Source: Phycisphaerae bacterium
GTDB taxonomy: Bacteria > Planctomycetota > Phycisphaerae > JAAYCJ01
DNA length: 44,705 nt
Reading direction: 5' to 3'
Assembly: GCA_012729815.1 (NCBI GenBank)
Contig: JAAYCJ010000226.1
Span: 1 to 44,705 of the forward strand
Part shown: positions 1,269 to 27,063 of the stretch, piece after piece
How the letters are laid out: every line of letters begins with the position of its first letter
Numbering within the stretch: the stretch's first letter is position 1
The notes under the pieces: generated by a model
What the model was told of the DNA's origin: nothing
The model's input: only the letters and a program-made list of their open reading frames with translations
Database searches by the model: none
Made by a program: the position numbers and the translations under genes

Positions 1269-1322
1269 TTTGGCGTTGTGGTAAGTAACGGATTCCGACG
1301 GCAATAAAGCGGAGATCGACCA

Positions 1323-1745
1323 ATGGCCGTGAGGTTATTTCTGAAGGTGATGACAATCGCGGCGGTATGCGCCTTTTTTCTGCCTTTCACCGAGGTCTTC
1401 GTACCGGTGCCAGTATCCGTGAAGCACTTTCTGAAAGTGGAGGTGCTCTTCTTGGCGATCATGGGGCTCTCAGCCGCGTGGGGTATTGTGACTCTGATGG
1501 TCCTCAAAGGCGGACAACTCAGCGAATTCAGGCAAGGAATTGTGGTCCTGGCAGTGCTCCTGCTTGTGGGGCCGTCTGCTGGAAGAACGCTCCCGCCTTA
1601 TCTACACATCTCGCAGACCCTGTCTGCGGTGTTATACTATGGACTGCTGTTGCTTGTTGTTGTGGCTGTGGCTGTGAACTACCGGCAGCGCCACAAGCAG
1701 GCTGTCGTTTCAGCGGTCACAAGAGATGATGAGAAATGCCAGTGA
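1323..1745 (+). CDS. Small multi-pass membrane protein (candidate immunity protein)
   Basis: 140 residues from ATG 1323. There are about four hydrophobic segments, near residues 7-27, 40-62, 72-90 and 100-120, with a short basic C-terminal tail. I do not recognise the family. It follows the first RHS tip in the same orientation, and a similarly sized multi-pass protein follows the second RHS tip. In RHS and CDI loci the gene directly after the toxin tip is usually its immunity protein, and membrane immunity proteins are known, so an immunity role is a reasonable inference from position only. GC is lower than in the housekeeping genes, as in the tip before it. Confidence 0.55.
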   Translation: MAVRLFLKVMTIAAVCAFFLPFTEVFVPVPVSVKHFLKVEVLFLAIMGLSAAWGIVTLMVLKGGQLSEFRQGIVVLAVLLLVGPSAGRTLPPYLHISQTLSAVLYYGLLLLVVVAVAVNYRQRHKQAVVSAVTRDDEKCQ

Positions 1746-1748
1746 CAG

Positions 1749-3044: not shown

Positions 3045-3496
3045 GGAACGAGCGCACACGTAGGACCTGTGTTGCAGTATCAGTCTTCGTTCTGGTTGGC
3101 GTCATAGTCTTGGTCTGGCCAGATCTGTTCCGCTATGGTGATGACAAGGAAGGCCGTCCCTCCGTTGCCTTCTACCTAGTGGTCCCTGTGTTTGGGGCGG
3201 GAGCAGTGTTCTTGGCAACCGCTCTCCTCGACTTATGCAGAATAGAAAGGTGGAGACTTCTCATTGCCGTGACTATTGCACTTGGAACACTGGAGGGACT
3301 TTTTCTTTTTCTGTTTCCTCGATACTTCATGGCGGGCGTTGTAGAAGGTGGGCTGAGGACGATCCTCGTAGTAGGGGCCATCGGCTATGGCCTCCTTTCG
3401 GTCGTACTACTTCTCGGCTTATCAATCTTCAGTTGCATACGAAGTTCTCGAAGCAGCGGATTACAGACAGCAAACAGAAATGGTGAAAAGGAATAG
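3041..3496 (+). CDS. Small four-TM membrane protein coupled to the RHS tip (candidate immunity protein)
   Basis: I place the start at ATG 3041, which overlaps the RHS stop by ATGA; a longer open frame runs upstream but only through RHS coding sequence. The 151 residues carry a basic N-terminus, hydrophobic segments near 12-30, 45-68, 74-95 and 110-135, and a charged C-terminal tail. The family is not recognised. Tight coupling to the preceding tip and the parallel with the 1323-1745 protein make a tip-specific membrane immunity protein the best guess, unsupported by any motif. Confidence 0.6.
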   Translation: MRNERTRRTCVAVSVFVLVGVIVLVWPDLFRYGDDKEGRPSVAFYLVVPVFGAGAVFLATALLDLCRIERWRLLIAVTIALGTLEGLFLFLFPRYFMAGVVEGGLRTILVVGAIGYGLLSVVLLLGLSIFSCIRSSRSSGLQTANRNGEKE

Positions 3497-3639
3497 CCCC
3501 TGGCAGTCCGCAGAGTTCCGAAGGGAATTTCGGGGATACCATATAATGGCACTAATAGGCCTTTTTCCTGACCTTCGATCGCGGGACTTTGAGGAACGCG
3601 TCGCGTTTGGTTTTGGTGTCTGATCGGGCGGGGGCGATG

Positions 3640-3790
3640 CGGTTTGGGTGGCGGGGATTCTTGGCGGTGGCTGTCGATGACGCAATCCGCAGGCTTCTGC
3701 CTCGCCACGAACGGACCGGCCGGCCGGTGGGCGACGGGGCGTTCGTGACCCGTATCGAGCGGTGCCTTCATTGGACCGTAAGGAAGAAAG
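3640..3790 (+). pseudogene. Transposase C-terminal remnant (REP-associated tyrosine transposase)
   Basis: One frame reads WRGFLAVAVDDAIRR, then RTGRPVGDGAFVTRIERCL, matching the C-terminal signature also seen at 3-122 (RTGRRLGDEAFVTRIERRL). There is no catalytic HUH domain and no start; the basic tail is replaced by unrelated sequence. It is a decayed fragment of the same transposase family, 3' of the second RHS module. Confidence 0.55.
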
Positions 3791-3794
3791 AGAT

Positions 3795-3816
3795 GGTGGA
3801 TGTGGGAACATCCACC
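3795..3816 (+). repeat. REP-like hairpin, 9-bp perfect stem
   Basis: GGTGGATGT (3795-3803), loop GGGA, ACATCCACC (3808-3816). It lies directly after the transposase remnant, where REP palindromes mobilised by RAYT enzymes would be expected. The GNRA-type loop would make a stable RNA hairpin. No T-tract follows, so a classical terminator is unlikely. Confidence 0.6.
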
Positions 3817-3871
3817 CTACGCGATTCTGCGGGGATGACAGAAGGGGGGCTGGGATGGGTATCGGGCGGTG

Positions 3872-3892
3872 GGGCAACCACACGGGTTGCCC
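3872..3892 (+). repeat. Second REP-like hairpin, 8-bp perfect stem
   Basis: GGGCAACC (3872-3879), loop ACACG, GGTTGCCC (3885-3892). It lies 55 bases after the first hairpin in a gene-free stretch (3497-4099) that otherwise holds only the transposase remnant and the promoter-like site upstream of the transporter. Possibly part of a BIME-like cluster. Confidence 0.5.
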
Positions 3893-3962
3893 GTACGGAT
3901 TGGGGACGGCGTTTTTGCGGCCGCAGCCACGTGAGCTTACGTCCGAGGGGTGCGATTTTCGC

Positions 3963-3992
3963 TTGACTCCCGATCGGCTTGGGCAATATATG
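3963..3992 (+). promoter_or_regulatory. Possible sigma70-type promoter of the transporter
   Basis: TTGACT (3963-3968), an 18-bp spacer, then TATATG (3987-3992), about 110 bases before the transporter start. The match is moderate and the spacer long. Confidence 0.35.
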
Positions 3993-4099
3993 ATGGGCAG
4001 GGTTTGAGAGGGCGTGCGGCAGGTTATCCTATCGAGTTATCGAGTGGGCCGGATTTTGGCGTTCGCGGCAAGCATCCGGCGATGAAGGAGTGACGCGAC

Positions 4100-5709
4100 G
4101 TGGAGGAACCCAGAGCAGGCCAACGGGAGTCGTGGGGGACGAAACTCGGGATCATCATGGCGGTGGCTGGCAGCGCGGTGGGGTTGGGGAATTTTCTGCG
4201 GTTTCCGGGCGAGGCGGCGGCCAACGGGGGCGGGGCGTTCATGATCCCGTACTTCGTCTGCATCATCCTGTTGGGGATACCGCTGATGTGGGTGGAGTGG
4301 GCGATCGGGCGTTAGGGGGCGGTTTCGGGCATGGGACGGCGCCGGGGATTTTTCACACGATGTGGCGGAAGAACCGCTTTATCAAGTATTTCGGGGTGAT
4401 TGGGATTCTGGGGCCGATTCTCATTTATACGTATTACGTGTACATCGTATCGTGGCTGCTGGGTTTCGCGTTTTTTTCGGTCTCGGGGAGCGTGATGACG
4501 GCGGCGGAGTCGCAGGATAGCATCACGGCATTTCTGAACGGTTACCGTGGCATTTTGAGGAACGAGTGGTTCAGCGGGATCGGCTGGGCGTACCTGTTTC
4601 TGGTGGTCACGCTGGGACTGAACACGTGGATTCTCCTTCGTGGGATTCGGGGCGGCATCGAGCTGCTCTGCAAGATCGCGATGCCGGTCTTGCTGGTGCT
4701 TGGGGTGGTGTTGGTGGTGCGGGTATTGACGCTGGGCGCGCCGGACCCCGCTCAGCCGGCGTGGAACGTCGGGGGCGGCATGGGTTTTCTGTGGAATCCG
4801 GATTTCAGCGTGCTGGGGCGTTCGCAGGTCTGGCTGGCGGCGGCGGGACAGGTGTTCTTTTCACTATCGGTGGGGTTCGGGGTGATTCTGACGTATTCGA
4901 GCTATTTGAAGCGGGGCGATGACGTGGCCCTTTCGGGGCTGACCGCGGTGTCCACGAATACGTTCGCCGAGGTGATTCTGGGCGGCAGCATCGTGATTCC
5001 GGCTGCGTTCGCCTTTTTCGGTCCGATGGCGACGCAGCAGATCGCCCAGAGCGGGTTCGATCTGGCGGTGGTGACCATGCCGATGATTTTCGCGAAGATG
5101 CACTTCGGGCAGTTGTTCGCGGTTTTGTGGTTTACGCTGCTGTTCCTGGCCGGCATCACCTCATCGGTGTCGGTGGCCCAGCCGGCGGTTACGTTCCTGG
5201 AGGATGAACTGGACGTTGGGAAGGGCACGGCGGTGGCGATCTTCGCCACGGGGACCTTTATCCTGATTCAGTTGCCGGTGTTCCTGCTGAGCCACGGGGT
5301 TTTGGACGACATGGACTTTTTGGCGGCCAACTTCTTCGTGGTGGTCTTCGCCCTGATCGAGGTGGTGCTGTTCGCGTGGGTTTTCGGGATGAACCGGGCG
5401 TGGGAGGAGATTCATCACGGGGCGCAGCTGCGCATCCCTCGCGTTTACAAGTACATCATCAAGTTTGTGACGCCGAGTATTCTGATTGTGATCCTCGGCT
5501 GGTGGTTCTATGAGCGATGGCTTGACGTTCTGCTGCTGCGGAAGACACTGGAGGGGGGCGAGATCAGTCCGACGGACCGGCCGATCATTCTGGCTTCACG
5601 TTTGTTGATTTTGCTGATGATCTGGGGAATGATCGTGATGGTGAAGCTGGCCTGGCGACGGCGTCAGGCCGCTCCGGCGGTTTCGCAGGCGGGAGAGACA
5701 CCGACGTAA
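4100..5709 (+). pseudogene. Na+-dependent NSS/SNF family symporter, interrupted by a 1-base frameshift near 4313
   Basis: Start GTG 4100 with AAGGAG at 4085-4090. The first frame gives the family's N-terminus: TM1 [19 protein letters not shown], then [13 protein letters not shown], and a stop at TAG 4313. The next frame continues at once with GGGFGHGTAPGIF and runs to 5709 with the expected hydrophobic segments. NSS proteins normally read R-Y-G-x-x-x-G-H-G here, so one base lost from the Tyr codon restores the family pattern. NSS transporters import amino acids or related amines with Na+; the substrate cannot be read from sequence. The MetS-like small gene downstream suggests a methionine/alanine-type two-component carrier. 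Either the gene is freshly inactivated or the assembly has an error here; the rest shows no other damage, which favours error or recent mutation. Confidence 0.85.
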
Positions 5710-5765
5710 AGCGTTGGCTGGGCTGGGTTTCGCGATCGGCCCGGCTATAAGGAGGATGTGGCGCG

Positions 5766-5879
5766 ATGAGTCTCGGCGGTTTGCTGTTCTGTATGGTCTC
5801 CTGGGCCGTCATTCTGTTATTGATGGTATTTTGTTTTTATCGGGTTTTTCAGGGGGATGATCGCGCCGGGAGTGTCTGA
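5766..5879 (+). CDS. MetS-like small subunit of the NSS transporter (37 aa)
   Basis: ATG 5766, preceded by AAGGAGG (5749-5755) at ideal spacing; stop 5877-5879. The product is one TM helix (about residues 4-28) followed by FQGDDRAGSV. A one-helix peptide of 30-60 residues encoded directly after an NSS carrier matches the MetS type small subunit described for the Corynebacterium MetPS methionine/alanine importer. Gene position, size and the very strong ribosome binding site support a real gene. Sequence similarity to MetS itself could not be checked. Confidence 0.7.
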   Translation: MSLGGLLFCMVSWAVILLLMVFCFYRVFQGDDRAGSV

Positions 5880-5943
5880 TTGGCCGGTCGTGGCAGCGGC
5901 GTGTGGCGGATGTACAGCGACAGTGGCGGCTGTGTGTTTTTCA

Positions 5944-5971
5944 TTGACTTTGGTTAATGAAAAGCTATTCT
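5944..5971 (+). promoter_or_regulatory. Probable promoter of ino1
   Basis: TTGACT (5944-5949), 16-bp spacer, TATTCT (5966-5971), in an AT-richer patch. The leader to the ino1 start is about 120 bases and includes a small hairpin GTTCCA / TGGAAC at 6046-6062. Confidence 0.55.
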
Positions 5972-6098
5972 TGGGTCTGTTTTCGGAAGGCGCATAGGGT
6001 CTTGGATTGATCTGGAGGTTTGGAGGCGCGCCTTTCGTAGACGGCGTTCCAAAGGGTGGAACTTGTTGGAGTGATTCTAGCATCGGGAGATTTCGCTC

Positions 6099-7250
6099 AT
6101 GGGAAAGATACGCTTGGCTATTGTGGGAGTGGGCAACTGTTCGTCATCGCTGATTCAGGGCACGTTTTACTACCGTAACGGTCGCGACCTTTCGAACGCG
6201 GGGCTGCTGCATCCTCGGATCGGGCCTTATGCGATGGAGGATATCGAGGTGGTTGCGGCGTTCGACGTGGACTCCCGCAAGGTGGGCAAGGACGTTTCGG
6301 AGGCGATCTTCGCCCTGCCGAACTGCACGAAGGTTTTCTGCAGTGACGTCCCGAAACTCGGAGTGACGGTGCAGATGGGTCACGTTCTGGACGGGGTTCC
6401 GGCCCACATGGCTGAGTATCCGGAGACTCGTGCGTTCCGGGTGGCCGAGGGCAAGGGCGTGGACGTGGTGAAGGTGCTCAAGGAGGCGCGGGCGGACGTT
6501 CTGGTGAGCTATCTGCCGGTGGGATCGGAGGAGGCGACGCGGTTTTATGCCGAAGCGGCTTTGGAGGCTGGTTGCGGGATGGTGAACTGCGTGCCGGTGT
6601 TCATCGCGTCGGACCTGAAGTGGGGTAAGCGCTTTAAGGATCGCGGGTTACCGATCGTGGGCGACGATATCAAGAGTCAGTTCGGGGCGACGATCACGCA
6701 TCGGGTGCTGACCAAGCTGTTTGAGGACCGCGGGGTGAAGCTGGAGCGGACGTACCAGCTTAACACGGCTGGCAACACGGACTTTTTGAACATGCTGAAT
6801 CGCGACCGGCTCAAGAGCAAGCGGATTTCGAAGACCGAAGCGGTCCAATCGCAGCTTACCGAGCCCTTGGACCCGCAGAACATCCACATCGGGCCGAGCG
6901 ACTTTATTCACTGGCAGGACGACAATAAGGTGTGCTTCATCCGGATGGAAGGGCGGCAGTTCGGGGATGTGCCGTTCAACCTGGAGCTGCGGCTGAGCGT
7001 GGAGGATTCGCCGAACAGCGCGGGTGTGGCGGTGGACGCGATCCGCTGCTGCAAGCTGGCGATGGACCGTGGGATCGGCGGTCCGCTGACGGCGATCAGC
7101 GCGTTCACGATGAAGCATCCGCCGCAGCAGTATGCGGACTGGCAGGCGCGGGAGCTGCTGGAGGGTTTCCTGTGCGAGAAGTGCGTTGCGGAGGTTCCGA
7201 GCCGGGTGGAGACGCTCAAGCCGTCGCCGGCTGCGTCGGCGAAGGTCTAG
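6099..7250 (+). CDS. ino1: Inositol-3-phosphate synthase (myo-inositol-1-phosphate synthase)
   Basis: Converts glucose 6-phosphate to 1D-myo-inositol 3-phosphate with NAD+ as a recycled cofactor, the committed step to inositol lipids and other inositol compounds. The 383 residues match the shorter prokaryotic (actinobacterial/archaeal-like) form. The N-terminus has the Rossmann NAD loop IVGVGNCSSSLIQG (residues 7-20). The central catalytic region includes VNCVPVFIASD, GDDIKSQFGAT and the NTAGNTDF motif, all typical of the family. Start ATG 6099 fits the NAD loop; only a weak purine run (GGGAGA) precedes it. The gene is monocistronic with its own promoter, and its 3' end overlaps the convergent radical-SAM gene by 35 bases. 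Confidence 0.93.
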   Translation: MGKIRLAIVGVGNCSSSLIQGTFYYRNGRDLSNAGLLHPRIGPYAMEDIEVVAAFDVDSRKVGKDVSEAIFALPNCTKVFCSDVPKLGVTVQMGHVLDGVPAHMAEYPETRAFRVAEGKGVDVVKVLKEARADVLVSYLPVGSEEATRFYAEAALEAGCGMVNCVPVFIASDLKWGKRFKDRGLPIVGDDIKSQFGATITHRVLTKLFEDRGVKLERTYQLNTAGNTDFLNMLNRDRLKSKRISKTEAVQSQLTEPLDPQNIHIGPSDFIHWQDDNKVCFIRMEGRQFGDVPFNLELRLSVEDSPNSAGVAVDAIRCCKLAMDRGIGGPLTAISAFTMKHPPQQYADWQARELLEGFLCEKCVAEVPSRVETLKPSPAASAKV

Positions 7251-8790: not shown

Positions 8791-11022
8791 GTGACGCAGT
8801 CATTTCAGGCGAACTTCCGCAAGAACCTGGCCGTTCTGGGGCGGAGGCACGGGACGGTGCTTGCCAAGGCGGTGGCGGATGCCGCCGGCGGGTTTAAGAT
8901 GAGGGTGGACCCCGGCCACAATCCGCCGGTGGTGGCGCTGGAGCTTGACGGTGAGGAGATGATCCTGAACGACGGACCGTATGAGGAAATGGTTCGGCGA
9001 ACGCTTAGGGAGCTGGAAGGGTCGCTCCGGTTGGGATCGGCGATCCTCTTCAATGGTCTGGGGAACGGTTTGTATCTGGACATCGTCTTTGAGAATCAGC
9101 CCGCGCTTCTGCTGGGCATGCTGAATCCGCTGTACGTTCTGGAACAGCGGCTTGAGGTGCTGGTGGCCAATCTGTTCCTTCGCGACTGGCGGCGTCTGAT
9201 CGAGGCGGAGAACGTTTACTTCTTCGCGGGGCCCAACTGCCTGGACCAGTTTGCGGAGTTTCTGCGGCAGCGATCGAGCAAACTCCTTCCGGTGCATATG
9301 GTCCGGTCGTCGACGCCGACACAGGGGGATGTCACGGCTGTAGTCGAAGGGTTGGGGCAGGAGCGCAAGGACCGCTACGAGAAGCTGGTGCAGCAGATCG
9401 GGCAGTACTACAGCCGCATTCCGCCGCAACGGTACGCCCAGCTCTTCGGCGCCCACCCGCCGCGTCGGCCGCGGGTGTATCTGATTACCACGATCTTTTC
9501 AACCGTGCTGCAGTATTCGACGCGCGACGCGGCCGACGCATTTGAGCAGTTGGGATGGGAGACGTTCATCGACATCGAAGAGGACCGGACGGACCGAAGC
9601 ACGGGAAGCACTCTTGCCGAGAAGGTGTGGGACTTCAAGCCGGACCTGGTGTTCCAGATCGACCACGTGCGGCGTGAGTGGCCCAAGGGGGTTTTTCCGG
9701 CGTCGCTTCCGTATATCACGTGGATTCAGGACCGCATGCCGGACCTCTACTGCCACGGGGCCGGTCGGCGGCTCGGCCTGACGGACCTGATTTTCACGAT
9801 CAGCCCGATCTGCGACCTGACGTTGAACTATGACTATCCCGAGAAGCAGGCGTTCTATTTCCCGATGGTGGCGAATCGCCGTCGGCTTGCGGGCGCGGCG
9901 GGCAGCGATCCGGCGCGGCAGATCGTTTTCGTTTCGCACGCCAGCCAGACGACGGATCAGCTCTTCGCGGAATTCGACGCGATGTTCGGCAAGACGTTGG
10001 GAGAAGAGGATCACCCCGTAGTCCGCGGCGCGATCGCCGAACTGGTCGAGGACATGAGACGTCGGTTCGCCGAGGGCGAGTTTGTTTTGATCAAGCTGCA
10101 GTGGGAACAGCGGCTGGTCGACGCCCTGCGGTCTCGCGGCATCGACCTGGACATGGTCCCGCAACTGCGGCCGACGATCGGCGACTTTGTGTTTACCAAG
10201 TTCGGGAACGGGATATACCGGCATCAGATTCTCGAGTGGGCGGCTGAGAGCGGCTACCCGCTGAAGCTGTACGGCCGGGGATGGGAGCGGCATCCGACGC
10301 TTGGCCGTTACGCGTGCGGTGTGATCGAGAACGGACCGCCTCTGGCGGAACTTTACCGCAACAGTGCGGTTGCGTTGCAGGCGGTAATCACCGGCAACGG
10401 CCACCCGCGTCTTTTCGAAGGGGTCGCCGCGGGGGGGTTTTTCCTTTTTCCGAGGCATCCGAACGACGATTCGGCGGTTGTGATGGGGGACATGCTGGAG
10501 TGGTTTGGCCGGCAGAGCGGACGGCGATTTGACGATGTTCTTGCGTCGAGCGAGTTGGACGAGGTGCAGCGGCTGGCGTTGAGCCACCTTCGCGGGACCG
10601 TGTTTCGGGCGTTCGATCGGGTGGACGACGACATCATCCGGGCGGCTGGGATTCTGACGCAGACCGGCCATTGGCTTAGCGCGTTCCTCGGCGAGTCGAT
10701 ACGCGAGGTCTACTACACGACGCGTGAGCAATTTCACGAACGTCTTGCCTGGTTCTTTGAGCATCCCGAGGATCGGGCGAGGATCCTGGCCCAGATGCAG
10801 GAACACCTGGCGCGGTGGGATCTGCCGATGGTTCTGGGGGCGAGGCTGCGGGAGATATCAGGGTACCTCAGTCAACTGCCGCCGCTGGACAGCGGTCCTG
10901 TCGGTTCCTCGCCTGGTGGAGATAGAGATCAAAGCGACGGTTTGTCGCACACCAGCAGTCGTTGCAGTGGTGGAGCTTGCGGGCAATCTCGTAGAACCGC
11001 TCGGACCGGACCAGATCGGTGA
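8791..11022 (+). CDS. Large glycosyltransferase: DUF115/Maf-like N-terminal region plus CgeB-type GT-B domain
   Basis: 743 codons from GTG 8791, with GTGGAGAA as a weak ribosome site. Residues 5-175 (FRKNLAVL, ILNDGPYEEM, AILFNGLGNGLYL, FENQPALLLGMLNP) resemble the start of motility-associated-factor (Maf, DUF115) glycosyltransferases, which attach nonulosonic acids to proteins; this match is from memory and moderate. Residues 230-690 are a GT-B glycosyltransferase of the CgeB/Glyco_trans_1_2 type: DLVFQIDHVRREWP, a donor-side region LKLYGRGWERHPTLG and HPRLFEGVAAGGF. The last 50 or so residues are low-complexity and lie antisense to the C-terminus of the next gene, so they probably arose by stop-codon loss. 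Its neighbours are two radical-SAM paralogues pointing towards it. Confidence 0.75.
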   Translation: MTQSFQANFRKNLAVLGRRHGTVLAKAVADAAGGFKMRVDPGHNPPVVALELDGEEMILNDGPYEEMVRRTLRELEGSLRLGSAILFNGLGNGLYLDIVFENQPALLLGMLNPLYVLEQRLEVLVANLFLRDWRRLIEAENVYFFAGPNCLDQFAEFLRQRSSKLLPVHMVRSSTPTQGDVTAVVEGLGQERKDRYEKLVQQIGQYYSRIPPQRYAQLFGAHPPRRPRVYLITTIFSTVLQYSTRDAADAFEQLGWETFIDIEEDRTDRSTGSTLAEKVWDFKPDLVFQIDHVRREWPKGVFPASLPYITWIQDRMPDLYCHGAGRRLGLTDLIFTISPICDLTLNYDYPEKQAFYFPMVANRRRLAGAAGSDPARQIVFVSHASQTTDQLFAEFDAMFGKTLGEEDHPVVRGAIAELVEDMRRRFAEGEFVLIKLQWEQRLVDALRSRGIDLDMVPQLRPTIGDFVFTKFGNGIYRHQILEWAAESGYPLKLYGRGWERHPTLGRYACGVIENGPPLAELYRNSAVALQAVITGNGHPRLFEGVAAGGFFLFPRHPNDDSAVVMGDMLEWFGRQSGRRFDDVLASSELDEVQRLALSHLRGTVFRAFDRVDDDIIRAAGILTQTGHWLSAFLGESIREVYYTTREQFHERLAWFFEHPEDRARILAQMQEHLARWDLPMVLGARLREISGYLSQLPPLDSGPVGSSPGGDRDQSDGLSHTSSRCSGGACGQSRRTARTGPDR

Positions 11023-12175
11023 TGGGTGCGTCGGCCAGGTTGCCGATCCGGAAGGCCGGGAGTTTTTTCTGGCCGCACCAGTAGAGGTCCGCGTATTGGT
11101 CGACGTATGGGGTGGTGAACCCGGCTGTGCACGTGAGCTTCAATCGTCGGCGGAATCCGTCGGCGTAGATTCCATGTACGTGCCGGTCCAGTTCGGAGAT
11201 GACGGGGCTGTTGCGGATCAACTCATCGAAGCGATGCAGTTCCTCGTCGTTCCACGCGGCTTCGGGCAGGCGCGGGTCGGTCTGGTGGTAGCGGGCCACG
11301 GCGAAGTAGAGGCCCAGTTCGCCGCAGATCTGTTCGACGGTCTTGAAGTCCTGGGCCGTCTTGTCCGGCGTGATGACGAAGGTGACGTTCACGATCGTCC
11401 CCGGCCGCTGTTTGAGGCCGCGCAGGGTCGTCATGACCTTGTCGAAGCCGTCGACGCCTCGGACGCGGCGGTAGGTTTCCGGACCTCCGTCGAGCGAGGC
11501 GGCGAAGCGGGTGATTCCGTACTCGTCGCAGGCCTGGAAGGCGCGGTCGGGCAACAGGCCGTTGGTGAAGAGCAGCATGTTGTCCTTGTTGCGGATACGG
11601 CTCAGGATGCTTCGCCACTGCGGATGGCAGAAGAACTCGCCGCCGGAGAGGGTGTGGGTGGTTTCGGGGAGGGCGTTGACCGTCTCGACGATCAGATCGG
11701 CGTCGAGGTGGACGACGTCCGAGTTCCAGTAGGCGCAGAAGACGCAGCGGGAATTGCAGGCGCTGGTGGTGACCCAGTTGACGCGGGTCAGTTTGTGCTC
11801 GCAGACGGCCAGGGCGTAGTCGAGCATGTAGCCTTCGACGACGGCCACGGCGTCTCGTTCGATTCCGAGTTTGGCGAACACGTCGTCGCCGGGCGGGAAC
11901 GCGAAGATGACGGCCTCGGCTGAGGTCAGGTCCTCGGGCTTGGGCGGACGGGAGGCGATCCCGTCGATGACGACGTCCCACTTGGCTGGGCTGTCATCGA
12001 GGATGGCTTTGATTCGGTCGCCGCCGCCGCAGGACTTGACGAATCGGATGAGCTTGGGCACGACGTAGCCGCAGCCGTAGATGACGATCGGACCGGTTCC
12101 AGAGCACGCCTCGCGAATATCGGTGATGATCCTGCCCAGTTCGTTCCGCAGGGCCTCGACGCTGCTGCGATTCAT
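10868..12175 (-). CDS. Radical SAM protein with N-terminal Rossmann-like domain (paralogue 2)
   Basis: 435 residues, ATG 12175, preceded by AGAGGG on the coding strand. Architecture equals the gene at 7216-8574: IVIYGCGYVVPK and AILDDSPAKW in the N-terminal domain, TSACNSRCVFCAYW as the CxxxCxxC radical SAM motif, GGEFFCHPQWRSIL, AASLDGGPETYRRVRGVDG, and a C-terminal HHCNDCW with upstream Cys residues that could hold an auxiliary Fe-S cluster. The C-terminus stays similar to paralogue 1 as far as RRFD, so it is native, whereas the overlapping tail of the glycosyltransferase is not. Transcribed divergently from the third radical-SAM gene. Substrate unknown. Confidence 0.82.
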   Translation of the reverse strand: MNRSSVEALRNELGRIITDIREACSGTGPIVIYGCGYVVPKLIRFVKSCGGGDRIKAILDDSPAKWDVVIDGIASRPPKPEDLTSAEAVIFAFPPGDDVFAKLGIERDAVAVVEGYMLDYALAVCEHKLTRVNWVTTSACNSRCVFCAYWNSDVVHLDADLIVETVNALPETTHTLSGGEFFCHPQWRSILSRIRNKDNMLLFTNGLLPDRAFQACDEYGITRFAASLDGGPETYRRVRGVDGFDKVMTTLRGLKQRPGTIVNVTFVITPDKTAQDFKTVEQICGELGLYFAVARYHQTDPRLPEAAWNDEELHRFDELIRNSPVISELDRHVHGIYADGFRRRLKLTCTAGFTTPYVDQYADLYWCGQKKLPAFRIGNLADAPITDLVRSERFYEIARKLHHCNDCWCATNRRFDLYLHQARNRQDRCPAAAVD

Positions 12176-12190
12176 CGATTTCCCTCTTGT

Positions 12191-12218
12191 TTGATCCTGA
12201 AGTGGCCGATCGTATACA
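12191..12218 (+). promoter_or_regulatory. Probable promoter of the third radical SAM gene
   Basis: TTGATC (12191-12196), 16-bp spacer, TATACA (12213-12218). The -35 box coincides with the TTG that would open the longest frame, which argues against that TTG as a start codon. The palindromic GTATAC could also serve the divergent gene. Confidence 0.45.
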
Positions 12219-12280
12219 TATCATGTTATTCGGACGTACGGCGGTTTTGCTTTACTGTTGACGGCAGGAATTCTCCAAGG

Positions 12281-13318
12281 GTGACAATAAAAGATAAGTA
12301 CAGGTACTCGGAGCGGGACAAATTCGTTTCCCTTCTGGCCAAACAGGATTTCCACGAGGTCATGGCGGCGGTCAAGGGGGAGGCGTTTCGAGAGTATCGC
12401 CGGCAGTGGGATTGTGCCGGGCGGTTTGAGCTGGAGACGCCGGTTCCGCTGCACTGTGATTTCGAGTTCAGCACCGGGTGCAATCTGCGATGTTCGATGT
12501 GCCCGCACGGGATGCCCCGGCAGGCCCGGCCGGCGGGTTTCGATCGGGTTTCGGGGCGGTTTCCGTTTGAGTTGTTTCGCAAGGTGATCGACGAGGGTGT
12601 GCCGCTGGGGCTGCGGGCGATTGACTTGAGCTACTACAACGAGCCGCTATTGCGAGACGACCTTCCCGAGTTCATCGAGTACGCGGGGTCGCACGGCATT
12701 CTGGACATTCTGTGCAGCACCAATGCGCAACTGCTGGATGCGGAATGGACCGAACGGCTGTTGGATACGCCATTGACGCGGCTGAAGGTGTCGCTGGACG
12801 CGGACAGCTCTGAGACGTACGCGGCGATCCGGTCCGGCGGCGACTTTGGGGCGGCGGTGGGCAACCTGGAGCGTTTTATCCGGCGCAAGGCTGAGCGCGG
12901 GCAGGTGTTGCCGATCACGCGGGTCAGCTTCGTCAAGACGCGTCTAAACGAGCACGAGTTGGATGGGTTTCTGGCCCGATGGACGGGATTGGCTGACTAC
13001 GTGTGCGTCCAGGAACTGATCGAGTTTGACGAGATGAAGGTCGATCTGACTCCGGCCAGCCGGATCGTCAATCGCGATTTTCGGTGTCACCATCCGTGGC
13101 ATCAACTGACGTTCCGCGTGGACGGCCAGGCGCTGCCGTGCTGCACCATATGGGGCCAGCAGATTCCCGTCGGCAACGTCGCTGAGCAGTCGCTCGCGGA
13201 GATCTGGACCGGCCCGGCGATGAAGGCTTTGCGCCGGCTCCATCGCGAAGGCCGCTACCAGGAGAACCCGGTCTGTCTCAAGTGCGCCAAGAGCAGCGTG
13301 GCGGGTCAGGGCGATTAG
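12281..13318 (+). CDS. Radical SAM/SPASM-domain protein
   Basis: I choose GTG 12281 (about 345 residues, MTIKDKYRYSERDK) because the in-frame TTG at 12191 falls on a probable -35 box; ATG 12361 is another possibility. The radical SAM core has STGCNLRCSMCPHG (CxxxCxxC), DLSYYNEPLL and LKVSLDADSSETYAAIRSG. The C-terminal part has CHHPWHQLTFRVDGQALPCC, GNVAEQSLAEIW and CLKC, the layout of a SPASM domain that binds auxiliary Fe-S clusters. Such proteins include peptide-maturing and sugar- or alcohol-oxidising enzymes. No precursor peptide is evident nearby, and the flanking glycosyltransferase makes carbohydrate work as likely. It differs from the two paralogues by lacking the Rossmann-like N-terminus. 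Confidence 0.82.
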   Translation: MTIKDKYRYSERDKFVSLLAKQDFHEVMAAVKGEAFREYRRQWDCAGRFELETPVPLHCDFEFSTGCNLRCSMCPHGMPRQARPAGFDRVSGRFPFELFRKVIDEGVPLGLRAIDLSYYNEPLLRDDLPEFIEYAGSHGILDILCSTNAQLLDAEWTERLLDTPLTRLKVSLDADSSETYAAIRSGGDFGAAVGNLERFIRRKAERGQVLPITRVSFVKTRLNEHELDGFLARWTGLADYVCVQELIEFDEMKVDLTPASRIVNRDFRCHHPWHQLTFRVDGQALPCCTIWGQQIPVGNVAEQSLAEIWTGPAMKALRRLHREGRYQENPVCLKCAKSSVAGQGD

Positions 13319-16342: not shown

Positions 16343-17050
16343 CTAAGGTGCCATTCTCGATGTGGCATCCGCGGGGGGGTGTTCTTCATCATACGATCTG
16401 TTGGGTCCGTACGAATGCCAGAAGTAGACGCGGCGTCCGTCCGAAGCCGACAGGAATTCCCCGTCATTGTCGTAGTACACTTCGGCGGCTTCCGGCAGAT
16501 CGATATTTGGGAAGGCGGCTTTGAGGTGGACCAACGGCAGCTCCTCCACGCGGGTCTTCAATCGCCGGTGTTGGCGGATCAGAGCCATCAGGTCGGTCCG
16601 GCTGGAGATGACGCCGGCGTAGACCGATCCGTCGTTGAAGGTGTCGTGGATGCGGAGAACCTCCAGCGAGGCGGCCTCGACGGCGGCATCGCCGAGTATC
16701 GGCTTTAACCGGCGATCCGGCAGTGCGGAACGCACCGCCAGCGCGATCAGGACGGCGGACACCGCGAGCATCGCGACCCACGATATACGCAGACCAACCC
16801 ACCGCGAGACCAGCAGGAACAATCCCGCGTAACCGACGGCCACCGGCAACGTGAAAACCAAGCCGATTATGAACCACCCGCTGGTCCGGAACGGGAAGAA
16901 CCGCGTCTGCGGCGCGTAGTCGATTGACGCCATGCCAAACCATGCCGCGACCAGCAGGAGTGCTGCGCCGCTTGCAAGGAAACACGCTGTCGTTGCCCTA
17001 TGTTGAGGTTCTGTTCTGGAATTGACCCTATATAGCGTGAAAAGAGCCAT
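16343..17050 (-). CDS. Membrane protein with three TM segments and a soluble C-terminal domain
   Basis: I start at ATG 17050, with CAGGGG upstream; a TTG ten codons earlier extends the frame. The 235 residues comprise hydrophobic segments at about residues 22-42, 58-80 and 87-106, then about 125 soluble residues (EVLRIHDTFNDGSVYAGVIS, YYDNDGEFLSASDGRRVYFW). I do not recognise the family. It sits 40 bases after the nuclease-like gene on the same strand, so it might be a third member of that unit, but its base composition is closer to the host genes. Function unknown. Confidence 0.6.
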   Translation of the reverse strand: MALFTLYRVNSRTEPQHRATTACFLASGAALLLVAAWFGMASIDYAPQTRFFPFRTSGWFIIGLVFTLPVAVGYAGLFLLVSRWVGLRISWVAMLAVSAVLIALAVRSALPDRRLKPILGDAAVEAASLEVLRIHDTFNDGSVYAGVISSRTDLMALIRQHRRLKTRVEELPLVHLKAAFPNIDLPEAAEVYYDNDGEFLSASDGRRVYFWHSYGPNRSYDEEHPPADATSRMAP

Positions 17051-17090
17051 TGATCGCCCCTGAAACCTGCCGCAGGGCAAAAGAACGCGG

Positions 17091-17549
17091 CTAACCTCCG
17101 CCTCGTGGATTCATCCGCTCTATGCATTCCTCAAGTGAAATAGTACACCGCTGCATTGTACCTCCTTGGCGCGCGAGCCATCGCTCTAGCGCAAGGAGTT
17201 GTGAACACCGCAAGTCCGGTCGCTGAACACGTCGCAATACTACTCGCGCATGCACTACGTAAGGACTCATGGTCTCGCGCAAGCTCTCAATTGTAGACCG
17301 AAGCTGGCTCGCCGCCTTCTTCAAGTCGCTACCCTTAAGCTCGACAAAGCACACGGTGCCAAAGGAAGGGACACATAAGGCGAAATCGCAGACTTCACCT
17401 CGCGTGAGCATGCATCCATCGACACGGTATCGCAATACCCTGCGACCCTGAGGGTTTCGAGCGCGATATCGGCACCCTAGTTCTTCAAAGCAGGCGACAG
17501 TCCGTGCATCGTCGCTTAGCAGGCCATTTGTTCCTAGCCGAGTTTTCAT
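17091..17549 (-). CDS. Putative PD-(D/E)XK-type nuclease partner of the ATPase
   Basis: 152 residues. Its ATG (17549) overlaps the ATPase stop by ATGA, so the two are translationally coupled. The core reads CDFALC, then VCFVELKGSDLKKAASQL: Asp55, Glu70 and Lys72 in the spacing D-x14-E-x-K, on alternating hydrophobic strands, as in PD-(D/E)XK nucleases and Holliday-junction resolvase-like folds. The following amphipathic helix with spaced Gln/Arg fits that fold. Rich in Cys and Arg. The size would suit a minimal nuclease domain with no separate targeting domain, so specificity may come from the ATPase. I cannot name a known defence family for the pair. Catalytic assignment is by motif only. 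Confidence 0.6.
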   Translation of the reverse strand: MKTRLGTNGLLSDDARTVACFEELGCRYRARNPQGRRVLRYRVDGCMLTRGEVCDFALCVPSFGTVCFVELKGSDLKKAASQLRSTIESLRETMSPYVVHARVVLRRVQRPDLRCSQLLALERWLARQGGTMQRCTISLEECIERMNPRGGG

Positions 17550-18865
17550 CGCCGCGATCCGCTAGTCTCCAGTTGCAGGAGTGCATCCATGTCTCGATTG
17601 AGCAGATCGGAAGCACTGTCGATGAGCTCACATCGAAGGGCGGGCGTGTCTGTAGATAGTAGATTTTCTGTCGTGCCATCCGCTACAAAGTAGCCATTCA
17701 CCTGTGACGGGTCTAGCCAGACACCCTCCGGGATCACCCTACTTACATCATCAGGTTTAACGTGTTGTGCAAGATCATGTGCGTACATCATATTATTGAT
17801 GCAAGTGAGGGCGTAGGGGGAATGCGTTGTAAGCACGAAGTCACATTTGATTGCGTTGAAGACGAAGACAATGTATTCAAGCAGGTCCTTCTGTGCAATG
17901 GGGTAGAGGTGTGCCTCTGGCTCTTCGATCACGACAAGAGAGCGTGATCGCTCAAGTACGAGAAGGAACAACAAGAGGAGTATCCATACCGATTCCTGTT
18001 GCCCAGACGAAGCATAGTTGATCTTGGTGAAGATGTCGTCTGAGACGTAAAGCTTGCCCCCCTCTTTGTCGTGGCGATACTCGCCCTTGAGTACTCGCTT
18101 AACAAATGATTGTGCTCTTCTGACAGCAGAGAACCAAACGGACGCGGTTGATAGGGCCTGGCGGTCACGTACTATCTCGTCTAATGACTTGTCAAAGAAT
18201 GCCTTCGTAGCGTTCACCGTCTCGGTAAACTGGCGCATCGGGAAGTCCAGGAGGTGTGGGTGGACATACTGCATCTGATCGGAGAGAGTGGACAGAATGC
18301 TACGCCCAGAGGGGATAAACACAAGCTCATTCTGGTACCCAAAAATGGCATTGCATTCCTTGCGCACGCGGTCAAGAATAGCTGCTCTCTGCTGGTCTAC
18401 CGCAAGTTTCTTAACGGCGGATAGGAACGTCGGTTGTGTCCTTTGCGGACGAAGCTGCCCTTCCACACTGCTAATCAGCTCTAATATGCGTTGCCACGCC
18501 TCGTGAGAAAAAAAAGGAGATACGTAACGATGGTGCTGTCTGTCAAGCGTTACGCGTAGTTCACATCCATTTCCATAGTTGTAGGTCACATTCACATCGT
18601 GGCTAAGCTTCCCAGGGCCGAAAAACTCGACGAAGCGATTGCGCAGGCGCTTTTTGAGAGCGTAGTCTGGTCGGTTAGCCTCCGCGTTTTGTGCACGCTC
18701 CATTACAAAAGCCGTCACCTCATCACGGACGTGGAGACTGTAGTGGATGAGCTTCGCGATCGTGCTCTTGCCTGATGACTGCGGCCCAATCAGCACGAGG
18801 AATCGACTCATATCAACCGATGCGTCACGAATCGGTCCGAAATTGTGGATTGTCAACCTATGCAT
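17546..18865 (-). CDS. OLD/ABC-type AAA ATPase, first gene of a putative defence pair
   Basis: 439 residues from ATG 18865 (MHRLTIHNFGPIRDA), with GGAAG seven bases before it; an ATG 23 codons upstream has no ribosome site. Walker A GPQSSGKST at 27-35, an ABC-like signature SSGQQES near 286-292, Walker B SLVVIEEPEAHLYP near 309-322, and the H-loop TTHSPYA near 346-352. This is the head domain of RecF/SMC/OLD-like ATPases used as sensors in defence systems such as Septu, PARIS, Gabija and Rlo. There is no TOPRIM nuclease in the polypeptide; the nuclease-like function appears to be the overlapping next gene. GC is clearly lower than in flanking genes, a sign of transfer. Confidence 0.85.
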   Translation of the reverse strand: MHRLTIHNFGPIRDASVDMSRFLVLIGPQSSGKSTIAKLIHYSLHVRDEVTAFVMERAQNAEANRPDYALKKRLRNRFVEFFGPGKLSHDVNVTYNYGNGCELRVTLDRQHHRYVSPFFSHEAWQRILELISSVEGQLRPQRTQPTFLSAVKKLAVDQQRAAILDRVRKECNAIFGYQNELVFIPSGRSILSTLSDQMQYVHPHLLDFPMRQFTETVNATKAFFDKSLDEIVRDRQALSTASVWFSAVRRAQSFVKRVLKGEYRHDKEGGKLYVSDDIFTKINYASSGQQESVWILLLLFLLVLERSRSLVVIEEPEAHLYPIAQKDLLEYIVFVFNAIKCDFVLTTHSPYALTCINNMMYAHDLAQHVKPDDVSRVIPEGVWLDPSQVNGYFVADGTTENLLSTDTPALRCELIDSASDLLNRDMDALLQLETSGSRR

Positions 18866-19226
18866 TGAATCACTTCCGTCTTGCGTCGAGTAGCGATCAC
18901 GTCCGGCCGGTGGGGTGTTGACTTTGTCTTCCATTCGTGGTCACTCTGGGTTATGTGCCAGAGACATCTCCTGCAACGCACAGCCCTGCAGCTTGCCGAC
19001 CACCTGTGCTGACAACCACGTGCGCTGACATGGAGAGCTTGGGCCTAAGGTGAACACCACTGGGCTGTGCTGCGGTTGGCTGCTCTTGACGCATAACTGC
19101 AAATTCTCCGCACTCCCCATGCTTCCTGTGAGGCACGGAAACGCCACTTCATTACAACAACTGCATCATATTCGATTGCACTGTCGATAGCAAGTGGCAT
19201 TTCAACGCCCACGTCGGACTGTGCCG
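18866..19226 (-). other. Long leader/intergenic stretch before the ATPase gene
   Basis: About 360 bases with no gene I can support. On the minus strand a 35-codon frame (MKWRFRASQEAWG...) and a 68-codon frame are open, but neither has a good ribosome site. The stretch has a composition unlike either neighbour and contains short scattered inverted repeats only. It may be the edge of the horizontally acquired segment. Confidence 0.4.
19165..19193 (-). promoter_or_regulatory. Possible promoter of the ATPase-nuclease operon
   Basis: On the minus strand, TTGCTA (19188-19193), 17-bp spacer, TATGAT (19165-19170). It would give an untranslated leader of about 290 bases, long for a two-gene operon. 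Confidence 0.4.
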
Positions 19227-19816: not shown

Positions 19817-19993
19817 TTTCGGGCTTTTTGCCGGTTCAGGGCATGAGGTCTTTATTAGAAGTAGTAGTGCATTGCGTCGTCCACGAATCATATCGCAGAT
19901 CATTCATTGCTGGGAGAGTAGCGGAAATCATTAATAAAGCCAATACATTGGCTTTGTTAATGATTATGCCCTGAACCGGCAAAAAGCCCGAAA
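19817..19993. repeat. 177-bp nested inverted-repeat element upstream of the TlyA-like gene
   Basis: The outer arms 19817-19844 and 19966-19993 are a perfect 28-bp inverted repeat (the right arm contains ATGCCCTGAACCGGC). Inside, 19926-19943 and 19948-19965 form an 18-bp hairpin with a single mismatch and the 4-base loop TACA; its right arm directly abuts the outer right arm. The 81 bases between carry a further weak imperfect repeat. No target-site duplication is obvious and there is no coding frame. It could be a MITE-like element or a highly structured RNA leader for the TlyA-like gene. Confidence 0.85.
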
Positions 19994-23017: not shown

Positions 23018-23271
23018 CGAGTCGCATTCCTTTGCCACTTTGAGGCTGGGCTTCCCACACAGACGGGACCAATCCCTACGAATACGGGACGAGTGTAATG
23101 CGGGGCGGGACGGGCGTCAATAGCGGGTATGGCGGCCCGGGCGGAGGCGGTTGGTGGGCGGGTTGACCCTGGCGGCGGGAGTTGTTAGGATGAGTTATTG
23201 GGGTGCAGTGGTGTTGATGGACGGCGGGTATGGCTGGGCGCGCCAGGCGTCCCATGTTGGGAGACAGCCAA

Positions 23272-26200
23272 ATGCGTGGTGGAAAATGGGCCTGGATGTG
23301 CGTCGTTGGGGCGGTTCTGGCGGGGTTGTGGGTGCAGGCGGCGGCGGTGGAGCTGAGGGTAGCCGACTCAGCCGGGCAGGCGGGTGAGCAGATCATCGTT
23401 GAGGTCGAGGCGGATGACGCTGCGGATATGCTGTCGGCGGACCTGACGATCGGGTGGGACTGGGCTGTGCTTTCACCGACATCGGTGGAGGCGGGCGGGC
23501 TGACGTCGGAGTTTCTGGTGGCTTCGGTTGCCGGGCGGTCGAGCCTGAACGTGGCCATGGCGGCTGATCAGCCGGCGAGCGGCGGCAGCGGGGCGATCCT
23601 TCGGATCGGATTTGAGATCGCGGCGGACGCCGCGGACCAGGTCTGCGAGATCAGCATTGCCAAGGCGACGGTATATGGCTCGGACGGCGCGGCCGAGACG
23701 GCCACGGTAGCAGCGGGCTTGGTGACGATCGGCGATCCCAACGAAGCTGATCCCAACGATCCGGATCCCAATGCCATCGATCCGAATGAGACGGATCCGA
23801 ACGACGTGGATCCGAATGACACCGATCCCAACGACGCCGACCCGAACAACTCGGGTCCGATTACACCGGCGGGCGGCTGCATGATGATGGGCATGATCGT
23901 GGCGTTGGCGGTCTTTCCGGCGGTCTTTCTGCTGGGCGGGAAAATGCGCGGGCGGGGAACGAGGCGAAGTTTGCCGGCGTTTCTGGCCTTTGTCGCGTTC
24001 GTGGGACTAGCGGGTTTTGTCGCGGCTGAGACGGTGGGCGCGGCGCTGGGCGACGTCAACGGCGACGGCGATATCACGTCGATCGACGCGGCCATGGCGC
24101 TTCGGATCGCGGGCGGCGTCATCACACCTTCCACGGACCAGACGACTGCGGCGGATGTCGACGAGGACGGGCAGGTCACCCGCGCCGACGCCGAGATGAT
24201 TCTGTACTGGGCGGCGCAGGGATTTGGGACGCAGGTGCCGGAGATGTTCACCGAGCCGATGGTGCTGCCGGAACTGGCCAGCGTTTCGGGAGCGGTCGAC
24301 GCGGCGGGCGGGCAGGTCGCCCTCTCGAGCGGAACGTCGTTGATCCTCGCGGACGGGCAGTTGAGTGTGCCACGGACCTTCACGCTGAGCAAGTGCGACG
24401 TGTCGGAGCTGGACTCGGTGGGCAACCGGACGTGCTTCCAGGTGTCGCCCGATCCGTCGTACTATGCGGGAACCAAGCTGGTCGTTCTCTATTCGGACCT
24501 GACCAACCCGGTGGCCGGTCCCGAGGAGATCGCGGACGTCAAGCTGTTCTACTACGATCCGGCGACGCGGATGAACGAGGCGGTCAGCGTGGATTGTCGG
24601 GCGTTCGAGGATCGCCTGGAGATCGCCCTGGACGCCATCCGGCCCGCGGTCGGGTCGGCGACGGCCAAGACGGCGGCGGCCAAGGACTCCGATGATACCT
24701 CGATTCTGGGCATCCTCATCGCGGACATCTTCGGCGACTACATCCAGTCGCAGGAGACGGAGGTTATCCTGTCGGTGCCGTTTTACGAGCAGGGCGGGAC
24801 CGGTTTCTGTTGGGCGGCTTCGACGTGCATGGTGGCGAATTACCTGGAGGGCGCCGATCCGTGGAAGCCGTGGGAACTGGTCAATTCCCTGAATATCCCC
24901 GACGCGGGTAAGTGGGCCAGCTTCTACCACTCGTCTCAGTGGTATGGCGGACTGATCTATCGGCGGACGAACTGCATACCGCGGCGGGATTGCTGGGGCA
25001 AGACGGAGAAGAACAACCTCAAGTTGTACCTCGGCAAGCGGATCATGGACGACCGGGTGCCGGTGGTCCTGTTTCTGACCTCGGAAAGCCACGTGGTGAC
25101 GGTGGTCGGCTACGAGAAGGGAACGGGGATGTTGACCATCCACGACCCCGCGCGGTCGATGTACACGCGGCGCGGGTTCTCGTCGATCGAGGAGAAGTGG
25201 CAGCCCGGAGCGATCTATTACACCATGGTCCTGGACTGCACGGCGCGGTCGGCCAAGGCGGTCGCCTGCCTGCCCCTCAGCGCGATCGACAAGGGCAAGG
25301 GACTGGCGTTCGTCTCGCCCATGGAGGACGATCCGAACAGCGTCGATTCGCTTCGGCGGGTGAGTTTCAACTGGCGGGACGAGACGCTGGCGGCCAGTGC
25401 GTTTCGCAGCCACAACGGCGACGGCCAGACCGTCACGACGATTCCCAACTATTACGCGATGGATCTGCGGATGCGGCTTGGCAACGCGGCCCGTTCGACG
25501 GCCAGGGTCAAGGCGCTCTGGAGCCTGTGTCCGCAGGGGTCGAGCCAGAAACTGCTGTCCGGCGAGCGCGAGATGACGCTGCCGTTCGACGGCGGCGTTG
25601 CGGACGTGGCGTTTTTCTCGAATGAATTGAAGGGCAAGAACCTTAACGGCGACTACGTGCTGCTCGTGGAGGTCTACGACACCGAATCGTTCAAGACGTG
25701 CGATCGGTGGTCGCTGGGCCTTGGGTTCGACGAGGGGATCAAGCTTCAAGCGGCCAAGGAAACCGACACGACGGGCAAGAAGATAGTCAAATTGACGTGG
25801 AACGCGGTCCAGGGCGATTTCGACCGTTACCGGGTCTACAAGCGGACGTCAACGGCGAGAGCCTGGCAGTGGATCAACCGGACCAAAGCGCTGTCGCCGA
25901 CCGATACGGAGTTTCGCGACGAGGACTACGACGATCAGAAGGACGCGTATTACGTGCTCGCCGCGTTCAAGGAGTCCCGATACCTGCTGACCAGCGACGT
26001 GGTGTCGCTGCTGAAGCCTTTGCCGGTGACGGCTCATCTTCTGTACTCGGCGTTCACCGGCCAGGCGCTTCAGGGGGAGGTGCTGGACCTGACCACGGGG
26101 CAGTGGACCGCGATTCCCGCCGATCCCAATACCGCGATCGACCCGCTGGGGCTCTCGGACAGTGGAGTGGCCCTGTTTCACGTTGCGGGCGGGACGAATG

Positions 26201-27063
26201 AGAAGCATCTCTTCGCGGCTGGGAGTTGGGGCGCGGCATCGGCGGTCGATTTGAGCGCGGCCACGGGTGCGGAGCTGTACCGCCTTTCCGCTTTCGCGGT
26301 CGGTATCACCGGGGCCGGACGGGTGTACTTTACGGGCAAGCGGACGACCACCGACCCGAACGGGTTCGTGGAGGTTGAATACGCGATCTTCTCGTGCGAC
26401 GGCAACGGAGGGAATCCCGGCGTTCTGAAGTTCGACTGGGACGGGAACGGGGTTCTGGACGATTTTGCCCCGAACGATCTGGCGGTCTCGAAGGATGGAT
26501 CGGTGCTGCTGTTCAGCCGGAACGAGAACGACAAGGAATGGCTGATGCGGACCACGCCCAGCGGCGCGACGCCGAGCTACCTGACGGACAAGTTCTGCGA
26601 GGACCTGTACGTCTGCGCCAACGGGACGGTCTGTTCGTTCCAGATGCGACCCGAAGAAGGTGATTTCCACATGGCCGTTCTGGATATTTTCAGCGGGCGG
26701 TTGATCGATCTGGACGCGGCGACGGGTCTGATGGTCATGTCGGACCACGTGGGCCTGAGCCCGGACGGTTCGATGGCGTGTTTCCCGGGGATGAACGAGA
26801 CGACCCGGAGCGCCAAGCTGTACATCTATCACATCGGTACGGGAACGTTGACGCCGCTGGAGACCGGCACCGTCTTTGCCGGCTGCGCTGATTTCACTCA
26901 TGATGGGCAGAGCATCGTTTTTATGGGGCTCGACGCCAGCGTGCCGCAGGCCAGCCGGCAGATGGACATCTATACCATCGCCGTGGACGGAAACGGTTTC
27001 CAGAACGTGACCAACACGTCGGACCGGCAGGAGGCGTGGGACAGCGTGCAGTTCGTGAATTGA
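23272..27063 (+). CDS. Giant secreted/anchored protein: cohesin-like, DPN linker, two TM, dockerin, C39-like peptidase, FN3-like, beta-propeller
   Basis: 1263 residues; ATG 23272 is preceded by GGGAGA seven bases away, better than ATG 23230. Order: signal peptide 1-25; cohesin-like beta-sandwich about 26-153 (VELRVADSAGQAGEQIIVEVE...); eight Asp-Pro-Asn repeats 155-193; TM about 202-222; second hydrophobic segment about 232-255 that looks like another signal peptide ending FVAAE; dockerin type I about 260-320 (GDVNGDGDITSIDAAMALRI, DVDEDGQVTRADAEMILYW, two Ca2+ loops); C39-like papain-fold peptidase with Cys513 (GTGFCWAAS), His607 (SHVVTVVGY) and Asp625 (IHDPA); a fibronectin III-like stretch about 835-900; and TolB/WD40-like repeats to the end. 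The middle looks like the end of one protein joined to the start of another. Function is inferred: extracellular assembly or proteolysis. Confidence 0.8.
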   Translation: MRGGKWAWMCVVGAVLAGLWVQAAAVELRVADSAGQAGEQIIVEVEADDAADMLSADLTIGWDWAVLSPTSVEAGGLTSEFLVASVAGRSSLNVAMAADQPASGGSGAILRIGFEIAADAADQVCEISIAKATVYGSDGAAETATVAAGLVTIGDPNEADPNDPDPNAIDPNETDPNDVDPNDTDPNDADPNNSGPITPAGGCMMMGMIVALAVFPAVFLLGGKMRGRGTRRSLPAFLAFVAFVGLAGFVAAETVGAALGDVNGDGDITSIDAAMALRIAGGVITPSTDQTTAADVDEDGQVTRADAEMILYWAAQGFGTQVPEMFTEPMVLPELASVSGAVDAAGGQVALSSGTSLILADGQLSVPRTFTLSKCDVSELDSVGNRTCFQVSPDPSYYAGTKLVVLYSDLTNPVAGPEEIADVKLFYYDPATRMNEAVSVDCRAFEDRLEIALDAIRPAVGSATAKTAAAKDSDDTSILGILIADIFGDYIQSQETEVILSVPFYEQGGTGFCWAASTCMVANYLEGADPWKPWELVNSLNIPDAGKWASFYHSSQWYGGLIYRRTNCIPRRDCWGKTEKNNLKLYLGKRIMDDRVPVVLFLTSESHVVTVVGYEKGTGMLTIHDPARSMYTRRGFSSIEEKWQPGAIYYTMVLDCTARSAKAVACLPLSAIDKGKGLAFVSPMEDDPNSVDSLRRVSFNWRDETLAASAFRSHNGDGQTVTTIPNYYAMDLRMRLGNAARSTARVKALWSLCPQGSSQKLLSGEREMTLPFDGGVADVAFFSNELKGKNLNGDYVLLVEVYDTESFKTCDRWSLGLGFDEGIKLQAAKETDTTGKKIVKLTWNAVQGDFDRYRVYKRTSTARAWQWINRTKALSPTDTEFRDEDYDDQKDAYYVLAAFKESRYLLTSDVVSLLKPLPVTAHLLYSAFTGQALQGEVLDLTTGQWTAIPADPNTAIDPLGLSDSGVALFHVAGGTNEKHLFAAGSWGAASAVDLSAATGAELYRLSAFAVGITGAGRVYFTGKRTTTDPNGFVEVEYAIFSCDGNGGNPGVLKFDWDGNGVLDDFAPNDLAVSKDGSVLLFSRNENDKEWLMRTTPSGATPSYLTDKFCEDLYVCANGTVCSFQMRPEEGDFHMAVLDIFSGRLIDLDAATGLMVMSDHVGLSPDGSMACFPGMNETTRSAKLYIYHIGTGTLTPLETGTVFAGCADFTHDGQSIVFMGLDASVPQASRQMDIYTIAVDGNGFQNVTNTSDRQEAWDSVQFVN
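23734..23850 (+). repeat. 15-bp coding repeats (DPNxx)
   Basis: Seven 15-bp units plus one 12-bp unit encode DPNEA, DPNDP, DPNAI, DPNET, DPNDV, DPNDT, DPNDA, DPNN. They form a flexible acidic linker between the cohesin-like domain and the first membrane segment. The same Asp-Pro-Asn spacer appears in the lipoprotein at 39068-39610. Confidence 0.9.

Follow-up and report, generated by a model that had tools for sequence, protein, structure and literature searches.

An ATPase gene overlapping a small nuclease gene

The window analyzed here, a 44,705-nucleotide contig of a Phycisphaerae bacterium (JAAYCJ010000226.1), contains an overlapping pair of genes that forms a candidate defence unit; both genes, and all coordinates given for them below, lie on the minus strand. 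Gene A (17546..18865; 439 amino acids) encodes an OLD/ABC-type ATPase without a fused TOPRIM domain and resembles WonA of the WonAB phage-defence system as well as the PADLOC model PDC-M29A. Gene B (17091..17549; 152 amino acids) encodes a predicted PD-(D/E)XK-type nuclease resembling WonB and PDC-M29B. Stop and start codons are joined in an ATGA, read directly in the sequence at 17546..17549 (17549-17546 in reading direction), and translational coupling of A and B would be expected from this overlap. A second in-frame ATG for gene A is found upstream, at 18934. We prefer 18865 as the start because the N-termini of the family align there and a GGAAG lies a few bases upstream. The guanine-cytosine (GC) content is 0.525 over 17001-19000 vs 0.58-0.67 in the flanks. 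Both the overlap and the GC dip had been described in a first-pass annotation of this DNA, made from the letters alone, and are confirmed.

The same annotation ascribed four ATPase motifs to gene A, all of which are located. The Walker A motif GPQSSGKST (residues 27-35; 18761..18787) contains K33, the counterpart of WonA K34, while the ABC signature reads SSGQQ (residues 286-290; 17996..18010). Walker B (17915..17941) comprises IEEPE (residues 313-317) with the catalytic E315, which corresponds to WonA E300, and the H-loop THSP (residues 347-350) places H348 (17822..17824) at the position of WonA H333. Moreover, R188 of an IPSGRS motif (18302..18304), counterpart of WonA R182, is an arginine in 86/86 aligned relatives, and E314, E315, P316, and E317 are invariant in the family alignment. 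A match to AAA_15 (2.9e-24) in Pfam, together with the OLD-type motifs, bears out an ATPase of the OLD/ABC kind; the Pfam scan of A gave no OLD-TOPRIM match.

Two PADLOC models recognize A, AriA (1.4e-28) and PDC-M29A (6.6e-23). The former would fit a divergent PARIS system in which A is an AriA and B replaces AriB, to be released once AriA detects an anti-restriction protein of the phage; AriA is the top model on A and also matches all 86 A relatives (best 7.6e-43). This match, however, extends over the whole superfamily, and the same 86 relatives all match PDC-M29A, far better at best (1.5e-119). A profile of A against solved structures ranks Thermus OLD and PtuA (3e-13) above AriA. In addition, Pfam and PADLOC detect no AriB, DUF4435, or TOPRIM match in B, which has a predicted PD-(D/E)XK core instead, and the flanks hold no AriB gene. 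We therefore regard a divergent PARIS as most improbable.

In gene B, D44 (17418..17420) is a conserved aspartate before the core strand, D55 (17385..17387) the aspartate of nuclease motif I, and E70-x-K72 (17334..17342) contains the counterpart of WonB K71, K72, while the RecB-like glutamine Q82 (17304..17306) lies on the helix that follows the core. In the alignment of 86 B proteins, the invariant residues are D44, C54, D55, E70, L71, K72, G73, D75, and Q82, with the invariance of E70-D75 biased by the retrieval pattern, which partly selected this stretch. Loci fetched via the ATPase alone retain D44, D55, E70, K72, and Q82, but not always C54 and D75. The positions retained without B-based retrieval are those needed by a PD-(D/E)XK active site. 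The nuclease spacing of Asp55, Glu70, and Lys72 that had been noticed in the single sequence is correct, and its invariance across the alignment takes it beyond chance.

An AlphaFold model of B built on an 82-sequence alignment is confident (predicted local distance difference test score, pLDDT, 93.2; predicted TM score, pTM, 0.89), while the single-sequence model is unusable (pLDDT 41). The confident model shows the nuclease core in the order beta-beta-beta-alpha-beta, with strands 38-42, 56-60, and 65-72, helix 76-89, and strand 98-105. D55 starts one strand, and E70 and K72 lie in the next. Restriction-fold enzymes are numerous among the best 50 PDB matches of this model in Foldseek (EndoMS, EcoT38I, PspGI, Can2, XPF/Mus81, Nt.BspD6I), and its best viral fold match is a PD-(D/E)XK protein (prob 0.98). 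Searched against solved structures by phmmer and as a profile, B returned nothing meaningful. Several B relatives give weak Pfam matches to restriction-fold families (HSDR_N_2, PDDEXK_9, DUF2726, NucS_C, SfsA, PDDEXK_11), and PDC-M29B (1.8e-4) is the sole PADLOC match of B itself. Among the relatives, 40/86 match one PDC-M29B model and 8/86 the other. Invariant residues, modelled core, and fold matches together support the earlier view of B as a minimal PD-(D/E)XK nuclease.

Conservation, distribution, and genomic setting of the pair

Scans of genome and viral collections with a single protein were unproductive until an alignment was built from four weak matches. The first B relatives were two plasmid matches, each beside an AAA ATPase, followed by two gut phage contigs; a five-sequence B alignment then retrieved 151 stretches in GTDB genomes, 80 of which were kept, and 6 viral loci. 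An ATPase lies directly upstream in 87/90 loci found through B, mostly within 20 bases or overlapping, and in the other three the contig ends, the frame is broken, or a gap of 396 bases intervenes. All upstream open reading frames (ORFs) are homologous to A. The pairwise distances of A correlate with those of B at 0.91, a value reached by 0/2000 permutations; as part of this correlation stems from shared host-genome ancestry, it demonstrates co-inheritance rather than contact. Retrieval seeded with ATPases only finds an adjacent B in 14/14 best loci (>245 bits), which include three near-identical copies, and in 0/31 weaker loci. A and B are a conserved, tight two-gene unit, as the first-pass annotation had proposed.

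Two ATPases (L118 and L116) are nested in the tree near the B-bearing L003 and L005, yet have no detectable B. The L118 ATPase is accompanied by a 202-aa partner with an FIETK motif, which suggests an exchange of the nuclease. Further, the distant ATPases L119-L123, L125, L128, and L130 are each followed by a protein of ~190-200 residues, most with an ELK motif, an apparent further type of ATPase and putative nuclease.

Relatives of the pair occur in Bacteroidota, Bacillota, Planctomycetota, Verrucomicrobiota, Nitrospirota, Cyanobacteriota, and Thermodesulfobacteriota, in phage contigs, and on plasmids, one of them mobilisable. On a Bacteroides finegoldii plasmid, a copy (3710-5414 of the retrieved locus) lies within a glycosyltransferase/O-antigen-type locus. 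In a gut phage contig, the copy is found downstream of a gene that we take to be SIR2-like and of another large gene, and this stretch (980-6332 of the retrieved contig) is likely a defence cluster. A third copy (4574-6321) resides in a P2-like prophage between the genes for replication (A) and portal (Q), a cargo site that in P2 houses old and tin. The same pair is present in 10/5426 complete E. coli genomes, where it is annotated merely as an AAA ATPase and a hypothetical protein.

In the ATPase tree, window A falls into a fully supported clade (100/99) together with members from Syntrophobacteraceae and Methylococcaceae, and four Planctomycetaceae pairs form a separate clade apart from it. 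B is absent from 100 related genomes searched with B. The PDC-M29B model gave no match in 392 genomes of the phylum and missed even the window's own copy; it is thus too weak there for its null result to bear on absence. In one relative from the same family, the S20-FtsJ order is kept, but FtsJ is followed by a different gene. Owing to the tree placement, the absence from related genomes, the different gene after FtsJ, and the GC dip, the window pair looks horizontally acquired. Nothing that would mark an element border, be it long flanking repeats, a tRNA, or an integrase, was found next to the pair.

The neighbours of the pair are housekeeping and metabolic genes, namely an FtsJ-like methyltransferase, ribosomal protein S20, GH32, and sulfatase genes. 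Between the FtsJ-like and S20 genes (19817-19993), a perfect 28-bp inverted repeat with 121 nt between its arms encloses a nested 19-bp hairpin. The minus-strand RNA of this repeat folds at -86 kcal/mol (z-score -11), and the element occurs in one copy in the genome and matches no Rfam family. Elsewhere in the window, two divergent radical SAM/SPASM genes adjoin each other (10868-12175, minus strand; 12191-13318, plus strand), and 23230-27063 (plus strand) encodes a secreted-type protein of 1277 residues that combines cohesin, dockerin, and C39-like peptidase domains.

A putative ATPase-controlled nuclease

WonAB, encoded by the Vibrio cholerae WASA-1 prophage, combines an OLD-ABC ATPase with a PD-(D/E)xK nuclease and blocks phage (Adams et al, 2025; PMC12137116). 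Its defence needs both genes and takes the form of lysis-independent abortive infection, and overproduction of WonB stops translation without loss of DNA, provided that WonA is active (PMC12137116). As translation stops while DNA stays intact, WonAB probably targets transfer RNA (tRNA) or ribosomal RNA (rRNA).

By analogy, we infer that the window pair would work like WonAB in its own host; what would trigger it and which nucleic acid it would cut are likewise matters of inference. Gene product A, an ABC-type ATPase, would form a dimer around ATP and sense infection, and its C-terminal extension would hold and license the nuclease. Upon infection, A would activate B, which would then cut a nucleic acid essential to the cell, so that growth would stop before phage particles are made. 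For this nucleic acid we lean slightly towards RNA.

The main rival is a restriction-like unit in which B cuts incoming phage DNA and A senses DNA ends or replication. The nearest solved folds of B, many of them DNA endonucleases (EndoMS, EcoT38I, PspGI, XPF), speak for such a unit, and OLD and Gabija relatives act on DNA. However, no modification or self-protection gene adjoins the pair, and WonAB, the closest studied system, spares DNA and halts translation (PMC12137116). A restriction-like unit is thus possible but rather unlikely. We are more doubtful still that the branch formed by the window, Syntrophobacteraceae, and Methylococcaceae pairs is a functional subtype with its own trigger or target, for example phage DNA.

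A small nuclease gene overlapping its partner, with relatives on plasmids and in prophages, is also what a toxin-antitoxin pair would look like, in which A silences B and the two are kept for plasmid or element maintenance with no role in phage defence. Yet WonB is toxic solely when WonA is present and active (PMC12137116), which excludes simple neutralisation and makes a toxin-antitoxin pair very improbable.

Comparison with known systems

Several systems combine an ATPase related to A with another effector and are rejected on the partner. PARIS shares the ATPase superfamily and supplies the top PADLOC score, but its effector, AriB (DUF4435/TOPRIM), is found neither in B nor in the flanks. 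Septu and retron PtuA-PtuB likewise join a related ABC-type ATPase to a small nuclease; PtuB, however, is an HNH protein, and library scans of B gave no HNH match. Gabija and class 1-2 OLD do not fit an ATPase without fused TOPRIM and without a UvrD-type GajB partner. For Rlo/AbiL (RloAB, RloC), no AbiLii/RloB partner or fused HNH anticodon nuclease was matched, the generic AbiLi ATPase model being the sole match of this group among family members. PD-T4-4 (Vassallo et al, 2022) is closer, as it also consists of two genes for an OLD-like ATPase and a PD-(D/E)XK protein, and PD-T4-4-like operons are said to differ in inserts, C-terminal extension, and sometimes the nuclease. Its ATPase model matches all 86 A relatives, but PD-T4-4_B matches just 1/86 B relatives and not window B, which is recognized by PDC-M29B only; PD-T4-4 is therefore rejected as well.

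PADLOC candidate PDC-M29 matches both adjacent genes, the B match being weak, and a literature search found no paper under this name. With PDC-M29 in PADLOC and WonAB published (PMC12137116), the arrangement of an ATPase and a small PD-(D/E)XK nuclease is already described, contrary to the suggestion of the first-pass annotation that it might be new, and the window pair is a distant new member. That annotation had also named PARIS, Rlo, and Septu as systems to which the pair might turn out to belong; it belongs to none of these three, while WonAB and PDC-M29 do provide a named match.

Several observations weigh against a WonAB-like defence unit. The AriA model outscores PDC-M29A on A (98.8 vs 79.6 bits), with no AriB present, and the window pair is isolated among housekeeping genes. 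Defence genes, whose enrichment near the pair had been proposed as a check, show no clear excess and are few both in 133 neighbour ORFs of 19 relatives and in 133 ORFs located far away on the same contigs, a small sample. No individual Foldseek match of the B model reaches significance (best PDB E 0.05); since restriction-fold enzymes are nevertheless prominent, we take B to be a divergent version of the predicted PD-(D/E)XK fold, which fits the label "novel REase". Lastly, the likeness to WonAB is one of architecture and published residue positions, not of direct sequence alignment, and no loci with the exact WonAB residue spacing were found in viral scans.

Taking these points into account, we consider it very likely that the window pair is a WonAB-like unit of the "OLD-ABC ATPase + Novel REase" class and serves as an ATPase-controlled nuclease defence. 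WonAB was filed under this class of Krishnan et al (2020) by its authors, who also place it near PD-T4-4 and the candidates of Payne et al (PMC12137116). According to PMC12137116 and PMC12409358, the class covers all WonAB homologues and occurs in 0.96% of genomes. Work on it has dealt with one Vibrio prophage, and reports of it come mainly from Gram-negatives; here it proves widespread, and the 86-member alignment provides a sharp residue list for a known system; this is evidence on spread and residues, not a new mechanism. As in WonAB, the ATPase has a C-terminal extension, the PD-(D/E)XK nuclease encoded after it is about as large (WonB 16.1 kDa; B relatives 15-20 kDa), and neither TOPRIM nor HNH is present. 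The genomic context differs from that of WonAB, and insertions lengthen the Lys-Arg (155 vs 148) and Lys-Glu (282 vs 266) spacings of A, while the step of 33 residues from the catalytic Glu to the H-loop His is the same as in WonA. WonA K34A, R182A, E300A, and H333A as well as WonB K71A abolish defence (PMC12137116), and each of these residues has its counterpart in the window pair, in K33, R188, E315, and H348 of A and K72 of B.
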